A stretch of DNA of 64,000 nucleotides from Paracoccaceae bacterium (GTDB taxonomy: Bacteria > Pseudomonadota > Alphaproteobacteria > Rhodobacterales > Rhodobacteraceae), in contig JAHDEX010000011.1 in NCBI GenBank assembly GCA_020628545.1, positions 1 to 64,000 on the forward strand. Direction: 5' to 3'. Position numbers and translations under genes: made by a program. The notes under the pieces were generated by a model that saw only the letters and a program-made list of their open reading frames with translations, was not told where the DNA came from and did not search any database. Position 1 is the first letter of the stretch. Each line of letters starts with the position of its first letter. Positions 10,011 to 19,313 of the stretch are shown one piece after another.

Positions 10011-10544
10011 ATGAAGACCTTCCTGATCCCGATCTTTTTGCTTTTCGTTGGCGTCGGAGGAGGCGTTGGAGCCGGTATCATGCTGGGTCCATCAGCGGGG
10101 ACCGATGATGACACCCCAGCAGAGGCTGAGGCCGATGTGGGTTCTGACTCCGCGGAAGAGCCGCCTGCGATGGGTCAGGACATTGCGGCATCCTCAACAC
10201 CGGCTGAGAACGGTGCCCGGGGTGTTGAGTTCCTTAATATGACCAACCAGTTCGTCGTGCCTTTGGTTAAGGACGGGCAGGTGAATGGCATCATCGTAGT
10301 TGCGATCAGTCTTGAAGTTGTTGAGGGGACGATTGCGGATGTCCATCTGCGCGAACCCAAACTGCGCGACCGCTTTTTGCAGGTCCTGTTCAATCACGCC
10401 AACAATGGCGGATTTGAAGGCAACTTCACTGACTTTCGGTATATCAAAAGTCTTAAGGAAGAGCTTTTGCGGAATGCTCAGGTGGTAGCTGGGCGGGATG
10501 TGAAAGACGTTCTGATCCTCGATCTGGTCAGACAGGATCCCTGA
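10011..10544 (+). CDS. FliL-family basal-body protein (second paralog)
   Basis: A 177-residue protein with an N-terminal membrane anchor (about residues 4-26), an acidic linker, and a periplasmic FliL domain (TNQFVVPLVKDGQVNGIIVVAISLEV, then PKLRDRFLQVLFNHAN). FliL proteins form rings around the stator and support torque. It is last in the flgB operon, 18 bp behind flgH, and is clearly distinct from the FliL at 18739-19248. It converges on the fliJ-like gene. Confidence 0.8.
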   Translation: MKTFLIPIFLLFVGVGGGVGAGIMLGPSAGTDDDTPAEAEADVGSDSAEEPPAMGQDIAASSTPAENGARGVEFLNMTNQFVVPLVKDGQVNGIIVVAISLEVVEGTIADVHLREPKLRDRFLQVLFNHANNGGFEGNFTDFRYIKSLKEELLRNAQVVAGRDVKDVLILDLVRQDP

Positions 10545-12776: not shown

Positions 12777-14861
12777 CTAAGTCGCGATGACGCCGACGAG
12801 GGCGGGTCGCGCCTCCATGCCAATCTCTTCATAAGACAGGACCGGTACACTGATCCCTTTGGCGGCAAGGAGGGTTCGGATGAAGCGCCGCCGCTTGATG
12901 TTGGTGACAACGGCGGCGCTTGTGTTTAGCCCGGCAGCTTTCTCAATCTCCTGCGTTGTGTTGTCGATCAGCTTGTTGAAGTCATCGGGCGGAAGCGCCA
13001 CATCGTTGCTCTTGGATACGTCGTTGCGAACTTCGTGGTTTCGGAAGATATCTTCCCACTCATTCGACACTTGGATCAGTGGGATCGTGCCGTCTTGCCG
13101 CTTGAGTTGCGCGATGATCTGAAACCCAAGGCGTTGCCGGACATGCTCGTAAATATCTTCGGTCGACTGATACATGCCGCGCGCCTCCGCGATGGCTTCA
13201 AGGATCATGGCGAGATTGCGAATCGAGACGCGTTCATCCAGCAGAGAGCGACAGATCGTCAGAAGCATATCGATCGGGACGCGATCCGGGATCAGCTCAT
13301 CCAGAAGTTTTTTATTTGCCGCACTCCGGCCTTCGTGGGCCAGTTGTGTCATCTCTTTTAGTCGCTTTTGAAGGGCTGACATTGTCAAAAGCCTTGAAAA
13401 ATTGGCCTTGACGACTTCAAGCAAGTGCGTAGCGAGCACTTCAGCGGGTTGGATGACGGTGAGACCCAGAAGCGACGCTTCCTCTTGCTGGTCTGGGCTA
13501 AGCCACTTTGCCGGGGCACCGTAGACCGGTTCCTCCACCCGAAGACCCTCGATATCCGCACCGGTATCATCGGACAAGAGCGCGAGACACTGGTCGGAAT
13601 AGAGCGTGTCGCGGGCTTGCTCTACCCCGAGGATGTGGATGATGTAGGTGCCGGTGTCGAGGACATCGCTGTCTGTCAATCGCACCTCGGGTAGGAGTAC
13701 ACCAAATTCCTTTGCCAGATAGGTCCGCATATTTGCGATGCGGGCATCCAAGCCATTCATCGGGTCCAGCGCCATCGGCACCAGATCTCGCGCGAATTCC
13801 AGATGGATGTCTTCGAGGTCAAGAATGTCGCCAAGTGTTTCTTGCCGTGGCGTCTCTTGCTCCGTTGCCTCGACAGTGGACGAGGACACGTCGCGTATTT
13901 TTGCCTGCTGATAGGCATAGTAGGTGACCGCCCCAAGGGCGAGCGAACCGCCGAAGAAAGGAACAAATGGGAGTCCTGGCACGAAGCCGAAAATCAGGAG
14001 CAGCAGTGCGACAGTTCCGAGCGCGCCGGGGTAACGCCCCAGCTGTTCAGTCAGCGTTTGATCCGTCGCACCTTCTTGGCCGCCTCGCGCGAGCAAGAGG
14101 GCGGATGCAATGGAAATCAGGACTGCCGGTATCTGAGAGACGAGCCCGTCGCCGACTGTGAGAATCGAATATGTTTCAAAGGCTTGCCCGGCCGGCATAT
14201 CGTGCCCGATAATGCCGATCAGGAAGCCAACGATCAGATTGAGCGCGGTGATCAAAAGCCCGGCGACGGCGTCGCCTTTTACAAATTTGGACGTCCCATC
14301 AAGTGAGCCGAAAAAGGTCGTTTCTGCTTGCTCCAACTCTCGGCGGTCGCGGGCCTGATCATGGTTGATCGCACCTGCGGCCACGTCACTGTCGATGGCC
14401 ATTTGTTTGCCAGGCATCGCGTCTAACGCGAAACGCGCGCCGACCTCCGCCATACGGGTGGCACCTTTATTGATGACTACAAAATTAACGATGAGCAGGA
14501 CTGAAAAGACAATCAAACCTATGATCACATTGCCGCCCATGATGAACATGGCGAAGCCTTCGATGACCTCTCCAGCAGCACTTGTCCCGGTATGACCTTC
14601 CCCGATGATCAATTTGGTCGACGCCACATTCAAAGCGAGCCGGAGCATGAGCGATGCGAGAAGTATTGTGGGAAAGGCAGAAAAATCGAGCGGACGTTCG
14701 ATAAAAAGCGTGATGGTAAACATCAGAATGGCCAACGCGAAAGACATCGCAAGTCCGGCGTCAAGAAGCCAGGTCGGAACGGGGAGGATCATCATGCAGA
14801 TGACACCCATCAGGAGCATCGCAAGAAGAACCGTCGGAGGGAAAATTGCAAACCGCGACAC
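12777..14861 (-). CDS. flhA: Flagellar export gate protein FlhA
   Basis: A 694-residue protein, normal FlhA length. The N-terminal half has about eight transmembrane segments with the FHIPEP-family block (LRLALNVASTKLIIGEGHTG, then GARFALDAMPGKQMAIDSD). The C-terminal half is the soluble docking platform for chaperone-substrate complexes. The start is a GTG (MSRFAIFPPTVLL) without an obvious strong ribosome site. A 93-bp gap separates it from the upstream motK-like gene. Confidence 0.96.
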   Translation of the reverse strand: MSRFAIFPPTVLLAMLLMGVICMMILPVPTWLLDAGLAMSFALAILMFTITLFIERPLDFSAFPTILLASLMLRLALNVASTKLIIGEGHTGTSAAGEVIEGFAMFIMGGNVIIGLIVFSVLLIVNFVVINKGATRMAEVGARFALDAMPGKQMAIDSDVAAGAINHDQARDRRELEQAETTFFGSLDGTSKFVKGDAVAGLLITALNLIVGFLIGIIGHDMPAGQAFETYSILTVGDGLVSQIPAVLISIASALLLARGGQEGATDQTLTEQLGRYPGALGTVALLLLIFGFVPGLPFVPFFGGSLALGAVTYYAYQQAKIRDVSSSTVEATEQETPRQETLGDILDLEDIHLEFARDLVPMALDPMNGLDARIANMRTYLAKEFGVLLPEVRLTDSDVLDTGTYIIHILGVEQARDTLYSDQCLALLSDDTGADIEGLRVEEPVYGAPAKWLSPDQQEEASLLGLTVIQPAEVLATHLLEVVKANFSRLLTMSALQKRLKEMTQLAHEGRSAANKKLLDELIPDRVPIDMLLTICRSLLDERVSIRNLAMILEAIAEARGMYQSTEDIYEHVRQRLGFQIIAQLKRQDGTIPLIQVSNEWEDIFRNHEVRNDVSKSNDVALPPDDFNKLIDNTTQEIEKAAGLNTSAAVVTNIKRRRFIRTLLAAKGISVPVLSYEEIGMEARPALVGVIAT

Positions 14862-14954: not shown

Positions 14955-16814
14955 TCAGTCTGTATCCGCAATCAGGGTTTCGATTGCGTTACGAATGGCG
15001 GTCGATCCGGCCAAAAGAGCCTCAGTCTCGGCAAAGCTGGGCATGCTTTCTGACGGCGCCTCGACCAGAAGTGGGAGCACAAAGGAATTGTCGCTTTGCC
15101 TTGACGCGACAGGTATCGGCCCATTGACGGTCTCCGGTTCCGTGCTCGCGAACTGATTGGGTGGCTGAATTTGAAGTTCCAATAGTCGGTCAGAGACCGT
15201 GGACCGCAATTCATCAGGAAAGTCGGGTAAATCACTGCGAAATGCGAAGGCAACAAGTTCCGAGTCTTTCATCCGATTCAGGCTCTGACCAACGTATTGG
15301 CGCAGGAGTTTTTGATAGTCTTCTGCTGCGATGCGCGGTTCGGCCTCTGCCAGAAGACTGAGCACCGAAACGAATTCGTCTTCCCGCACGCGAAGGTCTA
15401 AAACTGCGTCAAGCAATGCAACTTCTGACGGGGTGTTACGCCGTTCGACCCGCAAACTATCGAGGACGTCAATCGGCAACCGAGTTGGATCAAGTGGTGT
15501 GGCGTTGTCCGGATTGAGATCCCGTTCGGTAAGATTGGTGCGCAGGATGTCTCTCGGGGGTGCAGGCTCAACAAAATCGAATGTTTGCGGCGTCGTGTCA
15601 GAACCGATCAGATAGGACGCCAAGGTCGTATTCTTGTAGTCCTGCAACTCCTCATGGAAGTGCGCGAGACCAGCGACGGCCAGCGCTTCGCCGAACAAAA
15701 TCACCGTGCGGGCCTGGAGTGGTGGTGGGAGTTGCTTGAACGTGAGCATCAGGCGCCCGGGATCAGTTGTTGAGGACGCGACACCTTTGCCGGTATTGAG
15801 AAAGGCCCAAAATGCGAGGTCTTCCGGGCAATATTCAAGGCCGATTTGCTCTGGCTGCTTCGGCTGGTCGAGCAATTGTGCGATAAAACGGAGGGTGCGT
15901 ATGAAGTCGTCATCGTCGGACATGCTGTTGAGCACCTCCAAAGCTTCAAACCCAAAACCGTGACCAACGAGGAGCGTTGCAAGATCAATCGCCGCGTCAG
16001 CGTTCATCTTCGATTGCGCTTCATCTGTAATGAGTCTGCTTTGCGCCAGTCCTTTTGCGATACTGAACGAATGCTGGAAGCGCCATTTCTCGACCAATCG
16101 GGCGCCAATATCGCTACAATTCAGGGTCTTATCTCCGGAAGGCGCCTGCAAGTCCGGAGTAATTGTACTGAGTTCTGATTGAACGCCGATGGTGATGTTA
16201 TTGAGCAGTTCGGTCGAGATTTCAGGGCTCACCTGCAGAGCATTGCGGCCCGCTTGGATGTCCAAAAGTCCTTGATAGTTTGCTCGCGCAAGACCGCGCG
16301 AAATTGCGGCATCCAAGGCACCCAATGTTGAAAAGACCTCACTCCGGTTTTGTATAGCAAGGTCGCTTGTCTCAGGCGCGCGGGAGAGGTTCTGCAGAAC
16401 TTGAGTATGCCATGGGCGCGAGAGGCCATCTGTTGGGTTAAAGGACGCCGATGCGGTGGTTTGGTCTACGGGGCTTGCAATATCGATCGCTAAAAGACGA
16501 TCCTCCAAAAGGTAGCTGGACGCAGTGCAGTCGCATTTGAGTGTTATCAACAGCGTTTCGCTCGGCTCTGGCGACTGTATGTCCGCGATTCGCGTGATGT
16601 CGGGTTGTGTTGGAGGGAGTTCAAATGCGGTCGCATTTGGGATCGTGACCGCAATTTCGCGGCCTCCCGCTGAAACTGACCATCCGTCACGGGCGGGCAG
16701 CGTCAGAACCAAACGGGTGGCGTCGCCCAATTCGCCGATGCGCACCGGCACCGTCTCCGCCGCTGCAGCAAGTGGCATGAGCGCCGAGAAAACAGCGGTG
16801 AAGAGGCGGATCAT
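14955..16814 (-). CDS. Periplasmic flagellar motor-associated protein, MotK/MotC-like candidate
   Basis: A 619-residue secreted protein. Start set at ATG 16814 (MIRLFTAVFSALMPLAAAAE), a clean signal peptide, overlapping the motA stop as ATGA. After it comes an N-terminal beta-rich domain (VPVRIGELGDATRLVLTLPA, AMIN-like in look), a disordered linker, then a long helical region that could form TPR-like repeats. I recognise no catalytic motif. Position between motA and flhA, with motE nearby, matches alphaproteobacterial motors in which periplasmic MotC or MotK binds MotB. The specific name is inference; the exported, motor-linked role is reasonably supported. Confidence 0.5.
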   Translation of the reverse strand: MIRLFTAVFSALMPLAAAAETVPVRIGELGDATRLVLTLPARDGWSVSAGGREIAVTIPNATAFELPPTQPDITRIADIQSPEPSETLLITLKCDCTASSYLLEDRLLAIDIASPVDQTTASASFNPTDGLSRPWHTQVLQNLSRAPETSDLAIQNRSEVFSTLGALDAAISRGLARANYQGLLDIQAGRNALQVSPEISTELLNNITIGVQSELSTITPDLQAPSGDKTLNCSDIGARLVEKWRFQHSFSIAKGLAQSRLITDEAQSKMNADAAIDLATLLVGHGFGFEALEVLNSMSDDDDFIRTLRFIAQLLDQPKQPEQIGLEYCPEDLAFWAFLNTGKGVASSTTDPGRLMLTFKQLPPPLQARTVILFGEALAVAGLAHFHEELQDYKNTTLASYLIGSDTTPQTFDFVEPAPPRDILRTNLTERDLNPDNATPLDPTRLPIDVLDSLRVERRNTPSEVALLDAVLDLRVREDEFVSVLSLLAEAEPRIAAEDYQKLLRQYVGQSLNRMKDSELVAFAFRSDLPDFPDELRSTVSDRLLELQIQPPNQFASTEPETVNGPIPVASRQSDNSFVLPLLVEAPSESMPSFAETEALLAGSTAIRNAIETLIADTD

Positions 16815-17680
16815 GCCGCCTCCTTCTTCAACGATTTCAGTTGGTCTTCGAGTTCTGTGAAGCTGGGGCGCACATGCGCTGGTGTGTTCTGGCGGCCGAC
16901 CTCGATACAAATGTTTGGTGCATGCTGATGCAAGTTGGCGACCAAGACTTCGCGGATGAGGGCGTAGAAATGCGAGTCTTCTTCTACAACGGCTTTTACG
17001 CGTCCCGCAAAGGGACCAACGATGCCGTAGGCCAGAAAGACGCCCAGGAACGTGCCAACCAACGCGCCGCCAATAAGTTTTCCTAGCACTTCTGGCGGCT
17101 GATCAATCGACCCCATCGTTTTGATCACGCCCAGAACCGCTGCAACAATACCCAAGGCAGGAAGGCCGTCTGCCATGGTTTGTAGCGCATGGGAGGAATG
17201 CATGTTGTGATGGTTGGTCGCCTCAATACGTTTTTCCAAGACATCCTCAACCTGATGAGGATCGTCGAAGTTCATTGAGCCGGACCGAAGGGTGTCGCAG
17301 ATAAGCGAAAGCGCCTCTTTGTCTGATGCAATTTTAGCGTAGCGCTGAAAAATGGCGGAGCTTTCCGGGTCTTCAATGTGCCCCTCAAGTTCAACCGGAT
17401 TTGTTCTGACGATGCGCAGGAGTTCGAACAAAAGGCACAAAAGTTCGCGATAATCTTCGGCCTTCCACTTCGGCCCTTTGAAGACTTTGCCGACATCCTT
17501 CAGCGTATGCTTAATGCCAGCGGCGTCGTTGCTGATAACAAAGGCCCCGATGGCGGCGCCGCCGATCATGATCATCTCAAAAGGCAGCGCCTTGAGAATG
17601 ATCCCGAATTTTCCCCCGGCCAGAAGGTAGCCGCCAAAAACCATGACGAAGACAATTAAAACCCCGATAATACCAACCAT
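16811..17680 (-). CDS. motA: Flagellar stator protein MotA
   Basis: A 289-residue inner-membrane proton-channel stator subunit. Start moved from the track TTG (17716) to ATG 17680 (MVGIIGVLIVFVMVFGGYLLAGG), preceded by AGGAAGG. Four membrane segments are visible, with the second pair around LQTMADGLPALGIVAAVLGVI and GALVGTFLGVFLAYGIVGP. The cytoplasmic loop carries RSGSMNFDDPHQVEDVLEKRIE. motB is not in the window; it may lie left of the fliK-like gene or elsewhere. Confidence 0.95.
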   Translation of the reverse strand: MVGIIGVLIVFVMVFGGYLLAGGKFGIILKALPFEMIMIGGAAIGAFVISNDAAGIKHTLKDVGKVFKGPKWKAEDYRELLCLLFELLRIVRTNPVELEGHIEDPESSAIFQRYAKIASDKEALSLICDTLRSGSMNFDDPHQVEDVLEKRIEATNHHNMHSSHALQTMADGLPALGIVAAVLGVIKTMGSIDQPPEVLGKLIGGALVGTFLGVFLAYGIVGPFAGRVKAVVEEDSHFYALIREVLVANLHQHAPNICIEVGRQNTPAHVRPSFTELEDQLKSLKKEAA

Positions 17681-17753: not shown

Positions 17754-18365
17754 CTATTCCCGCTGTGGTCCCCCCGCGTTTCTGCCCGCCAGCATGATGG
17801 AAATCAGATGCGCGGTTTCAGGCTCAAGTTGTGTCATGATGGCTGCTGCGGGCTCTGGCTTCATGAGGCCGAGAAAGCCGGCGGCAAACCCCGGTTCCAT
17901 TGTCGTAAAGAGCGCGGCCGCATCCTGTGGCTTCATGTTTTCATAAACGGTTGCAAGGCGTTCGAGATCTGCAGTGGCAGCTTCATCCGTTCGCGCCAGA
18001 GTACTGGCAAGTCTCTCCTCTGCTGCCGCAAGTTCAGCCAGCTGTGCTGCGATAGCGTCTGCAGATTCCGCAAGTGCAGCTTCCATTTCGGCAGCTTCTA
18101 TTTCGGCTTCACGCAGGCGCGACTCTCTTTCCTGGAACATTTCCAAGATTTGTGGGAGGGTTTGATCGTCGAGCGGCATGCCAAGGACCCGTTCCGCGCG
18201 GGTGACATTCGCGTCGGCGGTGGCCTCCGTCTGAGCGGCAAAAGCGACGCCCACCTGATCAGAAATGCGTAGGACGCCCGACGTCGTAAGAACAACCGCC
18301 ATCAGCCAAAGAACATTCGACCGCCGCTGCGCGCGCGGCGGGAAGTGGCGCTTTGGCGCGATCAT
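17754..18365 (-). CDS. motE: MotE-like flagellar protein (MgtE-N-like C-terminus)
   Basis: A 203-residue protein with a basic N-terminus, one membrane anchor (about residues 18-40), a long Glu/Ala-rich coiled coil (residues ~75-140) and a C-terminal MgtE-N/MotE-like domain (VYENMKPQDAAALFTTMEP, then FLGLMKPEPAAAIMTQLEPE). MotE of Sinorhizobium is a periplasmic chaperone for MotC; homologues also occur in Cereibacter Fla2. Its start overlaps the DUF6468-like gene (ATGA), and it lies upstream of motA by about 70 bp. Confidence 0.75.
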   Translation of the reverse strand: MIAPKRHFPPRAQRRSNVLWLMAVVLTTSGVLRISDQVGVAFAAQTEATADANVTRAERVLGMPLDDQTLPQILEMFQERESRLREAEIEAAEMEAALAESADAIAAQLAELAAAEERLASTLARTDEAATADLERLATVYENMKPQDAAALFTTMEPGFAAGFLGLMKPEPAAAIMTQLEPETAHLISIMLAGRNAGGPQRE

Positions 18366-18727
18366 GCGTGTTCTTCCTTCATCCCAGCGGCGCGTTTCGC
18401 CTGAAACGGGTTATCAGGTTTCGCCCGTGGCATTGCCTTTTGGTCTGGCAGACTGTGCAAGGACGCGACGAGGAGTTCGAGGTGCCGGGCGGCTGCTTCT
18501 GCCCGCTCGCTCACGTCTTCCAGAGTTGTCACCGAGGTCTTCGCAGAAGTCTGCGCCGCGCGGAGCGTTCGATGAAGATCATCCGCTTTTGCGGCAAGCA
18601 ACGCGACGGCGCCGCCAACGCCTTTTTCGAGGTCGGTGAACTTGCGCAAACGTCGGGATAAAATCAGGCAGTAGAGCGCCGAAAGCAGCGCGCCTCCGGC
18701 CAATAATGCATCAGCAATCAGGGTCAT
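18362..18727 (-). CDS. DUF6468-like small membrane-anchored flagellar protein
   Basis: A 121-residue protein: one N-terminal transmembrane helix (MTLIADALLAGGALLSALYC), then a cytosol-or-periplasm coiled coil (FTDLEKGVGGAVALLAAKADDLHRTL) and a Lys/Pro-rich tail. Start taken at ATG 18727, 12 nt after the fliL stop; the track start lies inside fliL. Its layout resembles DUF6468 proteins that sit between fliL and motE in alphaproteobacterial flagellar operons. Function is not known. Confidence 0.55.
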   Translation of the reverse strand: MTLIADALLAGGALLSALYCLILSRRLRKFTDLEKGVGGAVALLAAKADDLHRTLRAAQTSAKTSVTTLEDVSERAEAAARHLELLVASLHSLPDQKAMPRAKPDNPFQAKRAAGMKEEHA

Positions 18728-18738
18728 GTTCTGTCCAG

Positions 18739-19248
18739 TCAATTGAGGATGAATTCTGTCACAAGCAGATCGCGTACGACGCCGGGGCCCGCCACGACCT
18801 GAACGCGATGCAGCATTTGGCTGCGCAACCACAGCAATGCAGTGGGCGATTCTAGGTCAGATATTTCGATCGCCCGTAAATATGTGTTGAGGATATCGAC
18901 GATCCTTGGCTTGATTGCTTCGACGGCGTCCTGATTTTGCGGTGCGACGTCGAGCTGAAGTTGCAGGCGAAGCAGGGAGCGTTCCGAACCTGGCGGGAGC
19001 GTCACATTAATGGGGTCGAGCCGCACGAAACTGACCTCTTCCGTGACGATCTGCTGTCTATCTGCGGGGTCGTCCTGACTTAGCTCAGCTTGAGAATCGA
19101 ACGGGAAGAGCCCCATCTGCGTCAGGAAAAACCCGCCGCCTGCACCAATCAAAGCAAGCACAAGCCCGATAATCAGGGGGAGTTTACCCCACTTTTTTGG
19201 CGTGCTGGCGTCTTCATCTGGCCCATCAATCTCGGTGGCAGCGGACAT
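18739..19248 (-). CDS. fliL: Flagellar basal-body protein FliL
   Basis: A 169-residue single-pass membrane protein: short cytosolic N-terminus, transmembrane helix LPLIIGLVLALIGAGGGFFLTQM, linker, and periplasmic FliL domain (SFVRLDPINVTLPPGSERSLLRLQLQLDV, ending VQVVAGPGVVRDLLVTEFILN). Start moved to ATG 19248 (MSAATEIDG), preceded by AGGAATCAG; the track start at 19335 is implausibly long. It is the first gene of the fliL-DUF6468-motE-motA unit and diverges from fliF. Confidence 0.9.
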   Translation of the reverse strand: MSAATEIDGPDEDASTPKKWGKLPLIIGLVLALIGAGGGFFLTQMGLFPFDSQAELSQDDPADRQQIVTEEVSFVRLDPINVTLPPGSERSLLRLQLQLDVAPQNQDAVEAIKPRIVDILNTYLRAIEISDLESPTALLWLRSQMLHRVQVVAGPGVVRDLLVTEFILN

Positions 19249-19298: not shown

Positions 19299-19313
19299 CT
19301 AACCGATTGTTAA
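19299..19313. promoter_or_regulatory. CtrA-like box between divergent fliL and fliF operons
   Basis: CTAA-CCGATTG-TTAA, seven of eight bases of the alphaproteobacterial CtrA consensus TTAA-N7-TTAA with exact 7-nt spacing. It lies 51 bp before the fliL ATG and 64 bp before the fliF start. CtrA is known to activate flagellar genes in Rhodobacterales and Caulobacter, so control of both operons is plausible but unproven. Confidence 0.5.

Follow-up and report, generated by a model that had tools for sequence, protein, structure and literature searches.

A signal-peptide protein encoded after motA in a Paracoccaceae flagellar operon is probably an orthologue of MotK

Which protein is encoded directly behind the stator gene motA in the flagellar cluster of a Paracoccaceae bacterium (contig JAHDEX010000011.1)? 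The stretch of DNA that we analyzed, referred to as the window, comprises 64,000 nucleotides. An initial annotation placed a 619-residue signal-peptide protein, here called X, at 14955-16814, and these coordinates are correct, with the gene on the minus strand. X and its neighbors are arranged as follows.

14955..16814, minus strand: X, probable motK orthologue, 619 aa (ATG at 16814, stop ending at 14955)
16811..17680, minus strand: motA, stator, 289 aa from the first ATG (TIGR03818, E 1.3e-109, over the cut-off)
17754..18365, minus strand: motE, E-ring type protein with a long helix and a 4-helix head (MgtE_N/FlbB-type matches, weak)
18362..18727, minus strand: pflI, DUF6468-like (product shares 44% identity with that of C. 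sphaeroides pflI)
18739..19248, minus strand: fliL (PF03748, E 6.6e-12)
12777..14861, minus strand: flhA, 93 bp downstream of X

The gene order is fliL-pflI(DUF6468)-motE-motA-X, followed by flhA. The motA stop (ending at 16811) and the X start overlap in a common ATGA, which bears out the coupling to motA described earlier, and motE and the DUF6468-like gene are indeed both in the X operon. The C. sphaeroides pflI product is over the DUF6468 cut-off; the window copy has no Pfam match. The label "stator operon" is only partly right. It holds for motA, the only MotA_N match in the genome, but the sole MotB_plug match is on another contig (C133), so that motB lies outside the X operon.

The plus-strand frame across the X region is interrupted by stops. 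X follows motA in all 15 close relatives of the same GTDB genus, at an identity of 19-23% versus 76-81% for MotA. Since the X family alignment has too few conserved stretches, a wider scan of Rhodobacteraceae loci was baited with motA. X is located directly 3' of motA in 80/80 of these loci, in most with a 4-bp overlap, and the full order fliF-fliL-pflI-motE-motA-X-flhA is found in 67 of the 80. The dN/dS of close pairs is 0.07-0.15 for X versus 0-0.04 for motA; X is the fastest-changing gene of the operon, yet constrained. The kept position (15/15, 80/80) and this dN/dS range indicate that X is not a chance ORF. The second match to X in its own genome (C16, E 1e-4) covers the TPR part only and is not a paralogue.

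We then compared X with the described periplasmic motor proteins. The A3 profile, which comprises 67 X homologues, matches an ORF in the fla2 cluster of C. sphaeroides with an E of 1.4e-138. That ORF has 652 aa from an in-frame ATG and is next to a 185-aa MotE, in a genome with a strong PufX match. For Cereibacter sphaeroides, a MotK of 652 aa, a MotE of 185 aa, and the operon fliL2-pflI-motE-motA2-motK have been published. On the strength of the profile match, these lengths and this operon order, we identify X as MotK. Compared directly by BLAST, the window X and MotK of C. sphaeroides show only weak similarity (E 0.006, with about 31% identity across 105 residues). Aside from the gene order, X shares with MotK of the Fla2 system (RSWS8N_12065, Q3IY86) a signal peptide, an AMIN-like domain, a TPR solenoid, and a C-terminal helix, while the lengths differ (619 aa versus 652 aa). 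The MotK counterpart considered in the initial annotation is thus upheld by the profile search, by the same order of genes, and by agreement with the domain layout published for MotK; the other proposal, a new periplasmic stator component, is not supported, since the family was already described in 2024. X is probably the MotK orthologue and the periplasmic counterpart of Campylobacter PflA, linking the MotE E-ring to MotB and the wall.

MotC of Sinorhizobium meliloti had been named alongside MotK as a possible counterpart. It resembles MotK in being periplasmic, in needing MotE, and in being essential for motility, and published comparisons of predicted structures group the two proteins on a similar TPR make-up. 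Membership of X and MotC in one protein family is nonetheless quite unlikely. Profile comparison (hhalign) of the X profile gives a probability of 0.1% against MotC and 0.5% against a MotC alignment, and the long class-wide form described below reaches 17% against MotC. Unlike X, MotC has no AMIN domain and no detectable sequence similarity to it, and is encoded after motB, not motA; X is not downstream of motB, which is on the other contig. MotC was therefore ruled out as a homologue on profile evidence. At its C-terminus, MotC (L181:8295-9599) is probably disordered and then has a short segment of helix-like character, SGRSKIDEIDALL, that resembles the MotK tail. As a tail common to MotC and MotK, this segment scored 2-3 bits with an E of about 9-12, which is not significant.

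The fold of X had been called unknown and its sequence free of recognizable motifs. As a single sequence, X indeed has no match in Pfam, NCBIfam, PHROGs, or PDB sequences. AMIN-like and TPR domains are recognizable, though only by profiles or structure. The AlphaFold2 model was built on the A3 alignment of 67 homologues and has a mean pLDDT of 75.9. From the N-terminus, residues 2-15 form a helix and residues 20-113 a sandwich of nine strands; a disordered stretch containing a helix (157-180) leads to a solenoid (233-546) and a final helix (594-617). The corresponding parts of the gene are listed below.

16758..16814, minus strand: Sec signal peptide, about residues 1-19, cleaved at AAA-E (assigned from the sequence; the model has a helix at 2-15, and the position is conserved in the alignment)
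16476..16757, minus strand: AMIN-type beta-sandwich, residues 20-113 (9 strands, block pLDDT about 80-96)
15177..16118, minus strand: alpha-solenoid of degenerate TPR type, residues 233-546 (AlphaFold2 model; TPR_19 in homologues)
14964..15035, minus strand: conserved C-terminal helix (L..LL..S...R..I..LL), residues 594-617 (AlphaFold2 model)

The N-terminus, MIRLFTAVFSALMPLAAAAE, reads as a Sec-type signal peptide without lipobox. PF24837 (AMIN-like) is found in 17/67 homologues and TPR_19 in 18/67. The X family profile also matches the AMIN domains of Amidase_3 proteins, and the PilQ B2 domain is among the top PDB fold matches of the X model. In the same fold search, small heat-shock proteins matched only the beta-sandwich and were set aside; so were COPI-epsilon sequences, whose weak PDB matches to the X profile (model positions 617-739) reflect generic TPR similarity. 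The window X is among the shortest forms in the A3 alignment (619 aa versus up to 862 aa) and lacks much of the C-terminal repeat region (around 14955-15180), with the final helix kept. Across the 67 homologues, Cys233 and Cys329 (16116-16118 and 15828-15830) are invariant, and the AMIN-domain pair Cys94-x-Cys96 (16533-16535 and 16527-16529) is nearly so. To judge from this conservation, disulfides among the four are possible. The long class-wide form has none of the four cysteines in its consensus.

Only one PDB chain matches the X model with E<=0.001 in Foldseek, namely 9hmf_K (E 2.1e-5, 773 residues), which belongs to the periplasmic scaffold of the C. jejuni motor. Its length fits PflA without signal peptide (residues 16-788, 773 residues) and not the PflB constructs (113-820), so we take chain K to be PflA. 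The global TM-score to X is low (0.11-0.13; alpha-carbon trace, flexible linker), and the match therefore supports the domain order, not the exact shape. With an AMIN domain, a TPR solenoid, and PflA as best PDB match, the fold is no longer unknown. PflA of Campylobacter and Helicobacter is like X in having a signal peptide, a beta-sandwich, a linker, and a TPR solenoid. Its partner FlgY is a MotE homologue. In the model of the window MotE, a long helix leads into a head of four helices, the shape described for the E-ring proteins FlgY/FlbB; its best PDB neighbors are FliG and MgtE domains. On the basis of predicted structures, a likeness of alphaproteobacterial MotE/MotK to FlgY/PflA had been proposed before. 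PflA is not among the PDB sequence matches of X or of the X profile, and for lack of such similarity we say that X works like a PflA, not that it is one.

How would X act in the motor? C. sphaeroides motK and motE mutants show no flagellar rotation, and MotK is periplasmic and binds MotE and MotB2 (PMC10954123). By analogy, X would be exported to the periplasm, where its solenoid would extend in a radial direction from the E-ring that MotE forms around the MS-ring, and its N-terminal AMIN domain and linker would reach the cell wall and MotB. X would thereby keep the MotA/MotB units at the rotor and open them so that protons can flow; in its absence, the flagellum would be built but would not turn. 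This spoke or anchor mechanism is the best-supported reading and draws partly on relatives: family membership, operon, signal peptide, domain order, fold match, and class-wide homologues were obtained for X itself, and for this organism we infer the bridging geometry and peptidoglycan binding. One point against a spoke with wall contact is that the beta-sandwich and linker of PflA in C. jejuni bind PflB rather than the cell wall.

X could instead be a stator activator: it would bind the periplasmic part of MotB and take the plug away, and its AMIN domain would do no more than position it at the wall. Consistent with this, MotK binds MotB2 and is polar only with MotA2/MotB2 (C. sphaeroides, PMC10954123), and plug mutations rescue a milder FssA mutant in C. 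crescentus, which places FssA/FssB in stator activity (PMC7885107). An architecture of the PflA type and a partner in the E-ring, MotE, speak for a scaffold, and as activation and scaffolding are not mutually exclusive, we consider an activator that is not a structural spoke possible but somewhat unlikely. Instability of C. sphaeroides MotE without MotK (PMC10954123) would also suit an X that serves MotE or MotA as a chaperone or in assembly and is not part of the finished motor. This is improbable, as MotK-sfGFP colocalizes with the hook in mature cells (PMC10954123) and a Phaeobacter mutant discussed below continues to export flagellin and hook proteins (PMC12363192).

The spoke reading raises the question of how widely the family extends. 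The A1 profile also matches long frames (about 1000-1260 residues) in other Alphaproteobacteria. All of those examined (16/16) are located in flagellar clusters with motE upstream, many with fliP adjoining, and match the X family both in the solenoid and in the AMIN part, where the match is often split into two segments. Alignment of the short and long families by hhalign gives 99.9% (E 1.1e-36, 435 columns), and the long-form profile reciprocally matches X in the window's own genome (E 2e-5). Matches to the long-form profile occur in 209/367 class genomes, although some weak ones may be generic TPRs. X is thus the rapidly evolving version, in Rhodobacterales, of a spoke-like motor component that occurs throughout Alphaproteobacteria. 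The long form differs from X in length (about 980-1260 aa), in its often doubled AMIN-type segment, and in usually lying between motE and fliP, whereas X lies after motA. Near the N-terminus of many long forms (L159-L174), the AMIN part is matched twice in tandem. FssB (CC_2058) of Caulobacter crescentus is likewise a secreted AMIN and TPR protein whose gene adjoins motE, and its deletion paralyses the flagellum (PMC7885107). While the long forms are homologous to X by profile, CC_2058 is likened to it by published description. Frames of ~400-490 aa were also matched by the N-terminal part. Three of the four checked are AMIN plus Amidase_3 amidases and not MotK, and thus lend independent support to the AMIN assignment in X; the fourth (L178) shows no more than a weak match to AMIN-like.

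These observations may be joined in a tentative scenario, which we regard as doubtful. Alphaproteobacteria would have inherited one PflA-type spoke, long and with tandem AMIN. In Rhodobacterales, its gene would have been relocated beside motA and one of the AMIN copies would have disappeared; some lineages, that of the window among them, would also have dropped the final TPRs. The spoke would have changed much more rapidly than the other parts of the motor. The radius of the stator ring would then differ between lineages, depending on how long the spoke is and how it contacts the wall and the stators, and AMIN would stand in for PflB.

The homologues bear on a 2025 study of Phaeobacter inhibens, in which the conserved protein CP4 (PGA1_c35690) is listed as "unknown" or "enigmatic" (PMC12363192). 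CP4 is like X in its place after motA in the same cluster. Six insertions in its gene rendered the cells immotile, and the Tn mutants were complemented (PMC12363192). FliC, FlgE, and FlgK are still exported by the CP4 mutants, with an exoproteome reduced relative to wild type, so that assembly may also be affected (PMC12363192). MotK and MotE are nowhere mentioned in that paper. By gene position CP4 is MotK, an identification that is new here; the P. inhibens sequence is represented by the P. italicus orthologue (L082), which has the same gene order as X but is longer (849 aa). By gene order, CP3 is MotE and CP2 is PflI. P. inhibens CP3 mutants exported only FlgH (PMC12363192), whereas C. sphaeroides motE mutants are flagellated (PMC13023049); polarity of the transposon insertions could explain this disagreement. 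CP1-4 were proposed to have been acquired after Rhodobacterales split from other orders (PMC12363192). This is contradicted for CP4 by the long class-wide homologues (16/16 clusters, hhalign 99.9%, 209/367 genomes), and for CP3 by the motE genes adjoining the long forms. The sequence comparison thus provides new evidence that CP4/MotK did not originate within Rhodobacterales. A conserved protein of the archetypal Rhodobacterales flagellum, CP4, can thereby be named and assigned a fold and a role that is open to testing, as can CP3 (MotE) and CP2 (PflI) by gene order; the E-ring/spoke system common to Alphaproteobacteria and Campylobacterota, so far resting on structure prediction, gains sequence-level support; and motor radius and torque in swimming marine roseobacters become testable through MotK.

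We also inspected the region upstream of the operon, which contains one further feature.

19299..19313, minus strand: CtrA-type box TTAACAATCGGTTAG in the fliL-fliF divergent promoter (sequence match)

The fliL-fliF intergenic region carries a nearly invariant 15-bp box, TTAACA[A/T]TCGGTTAG, in 79/79 loci, and its second half is TTAG, never TTAA. The window box is letter for letter identical to the one before C. sphaeroides fliL2, where a single published CtrA site serves both fliL2p and fliF2p. Elsewhere in the window, the gene after flgH (10011-10544) appears to encode a second FliL-like protein; a FliL family gene is annotated at the same place in Paroceanicella and P. inhibens. On the contig carrying motB, a PufX match is located ~10 kb from that gene (G000:C133:22924-23121), and the organism is therefore probably an anoxygenic phototroph.
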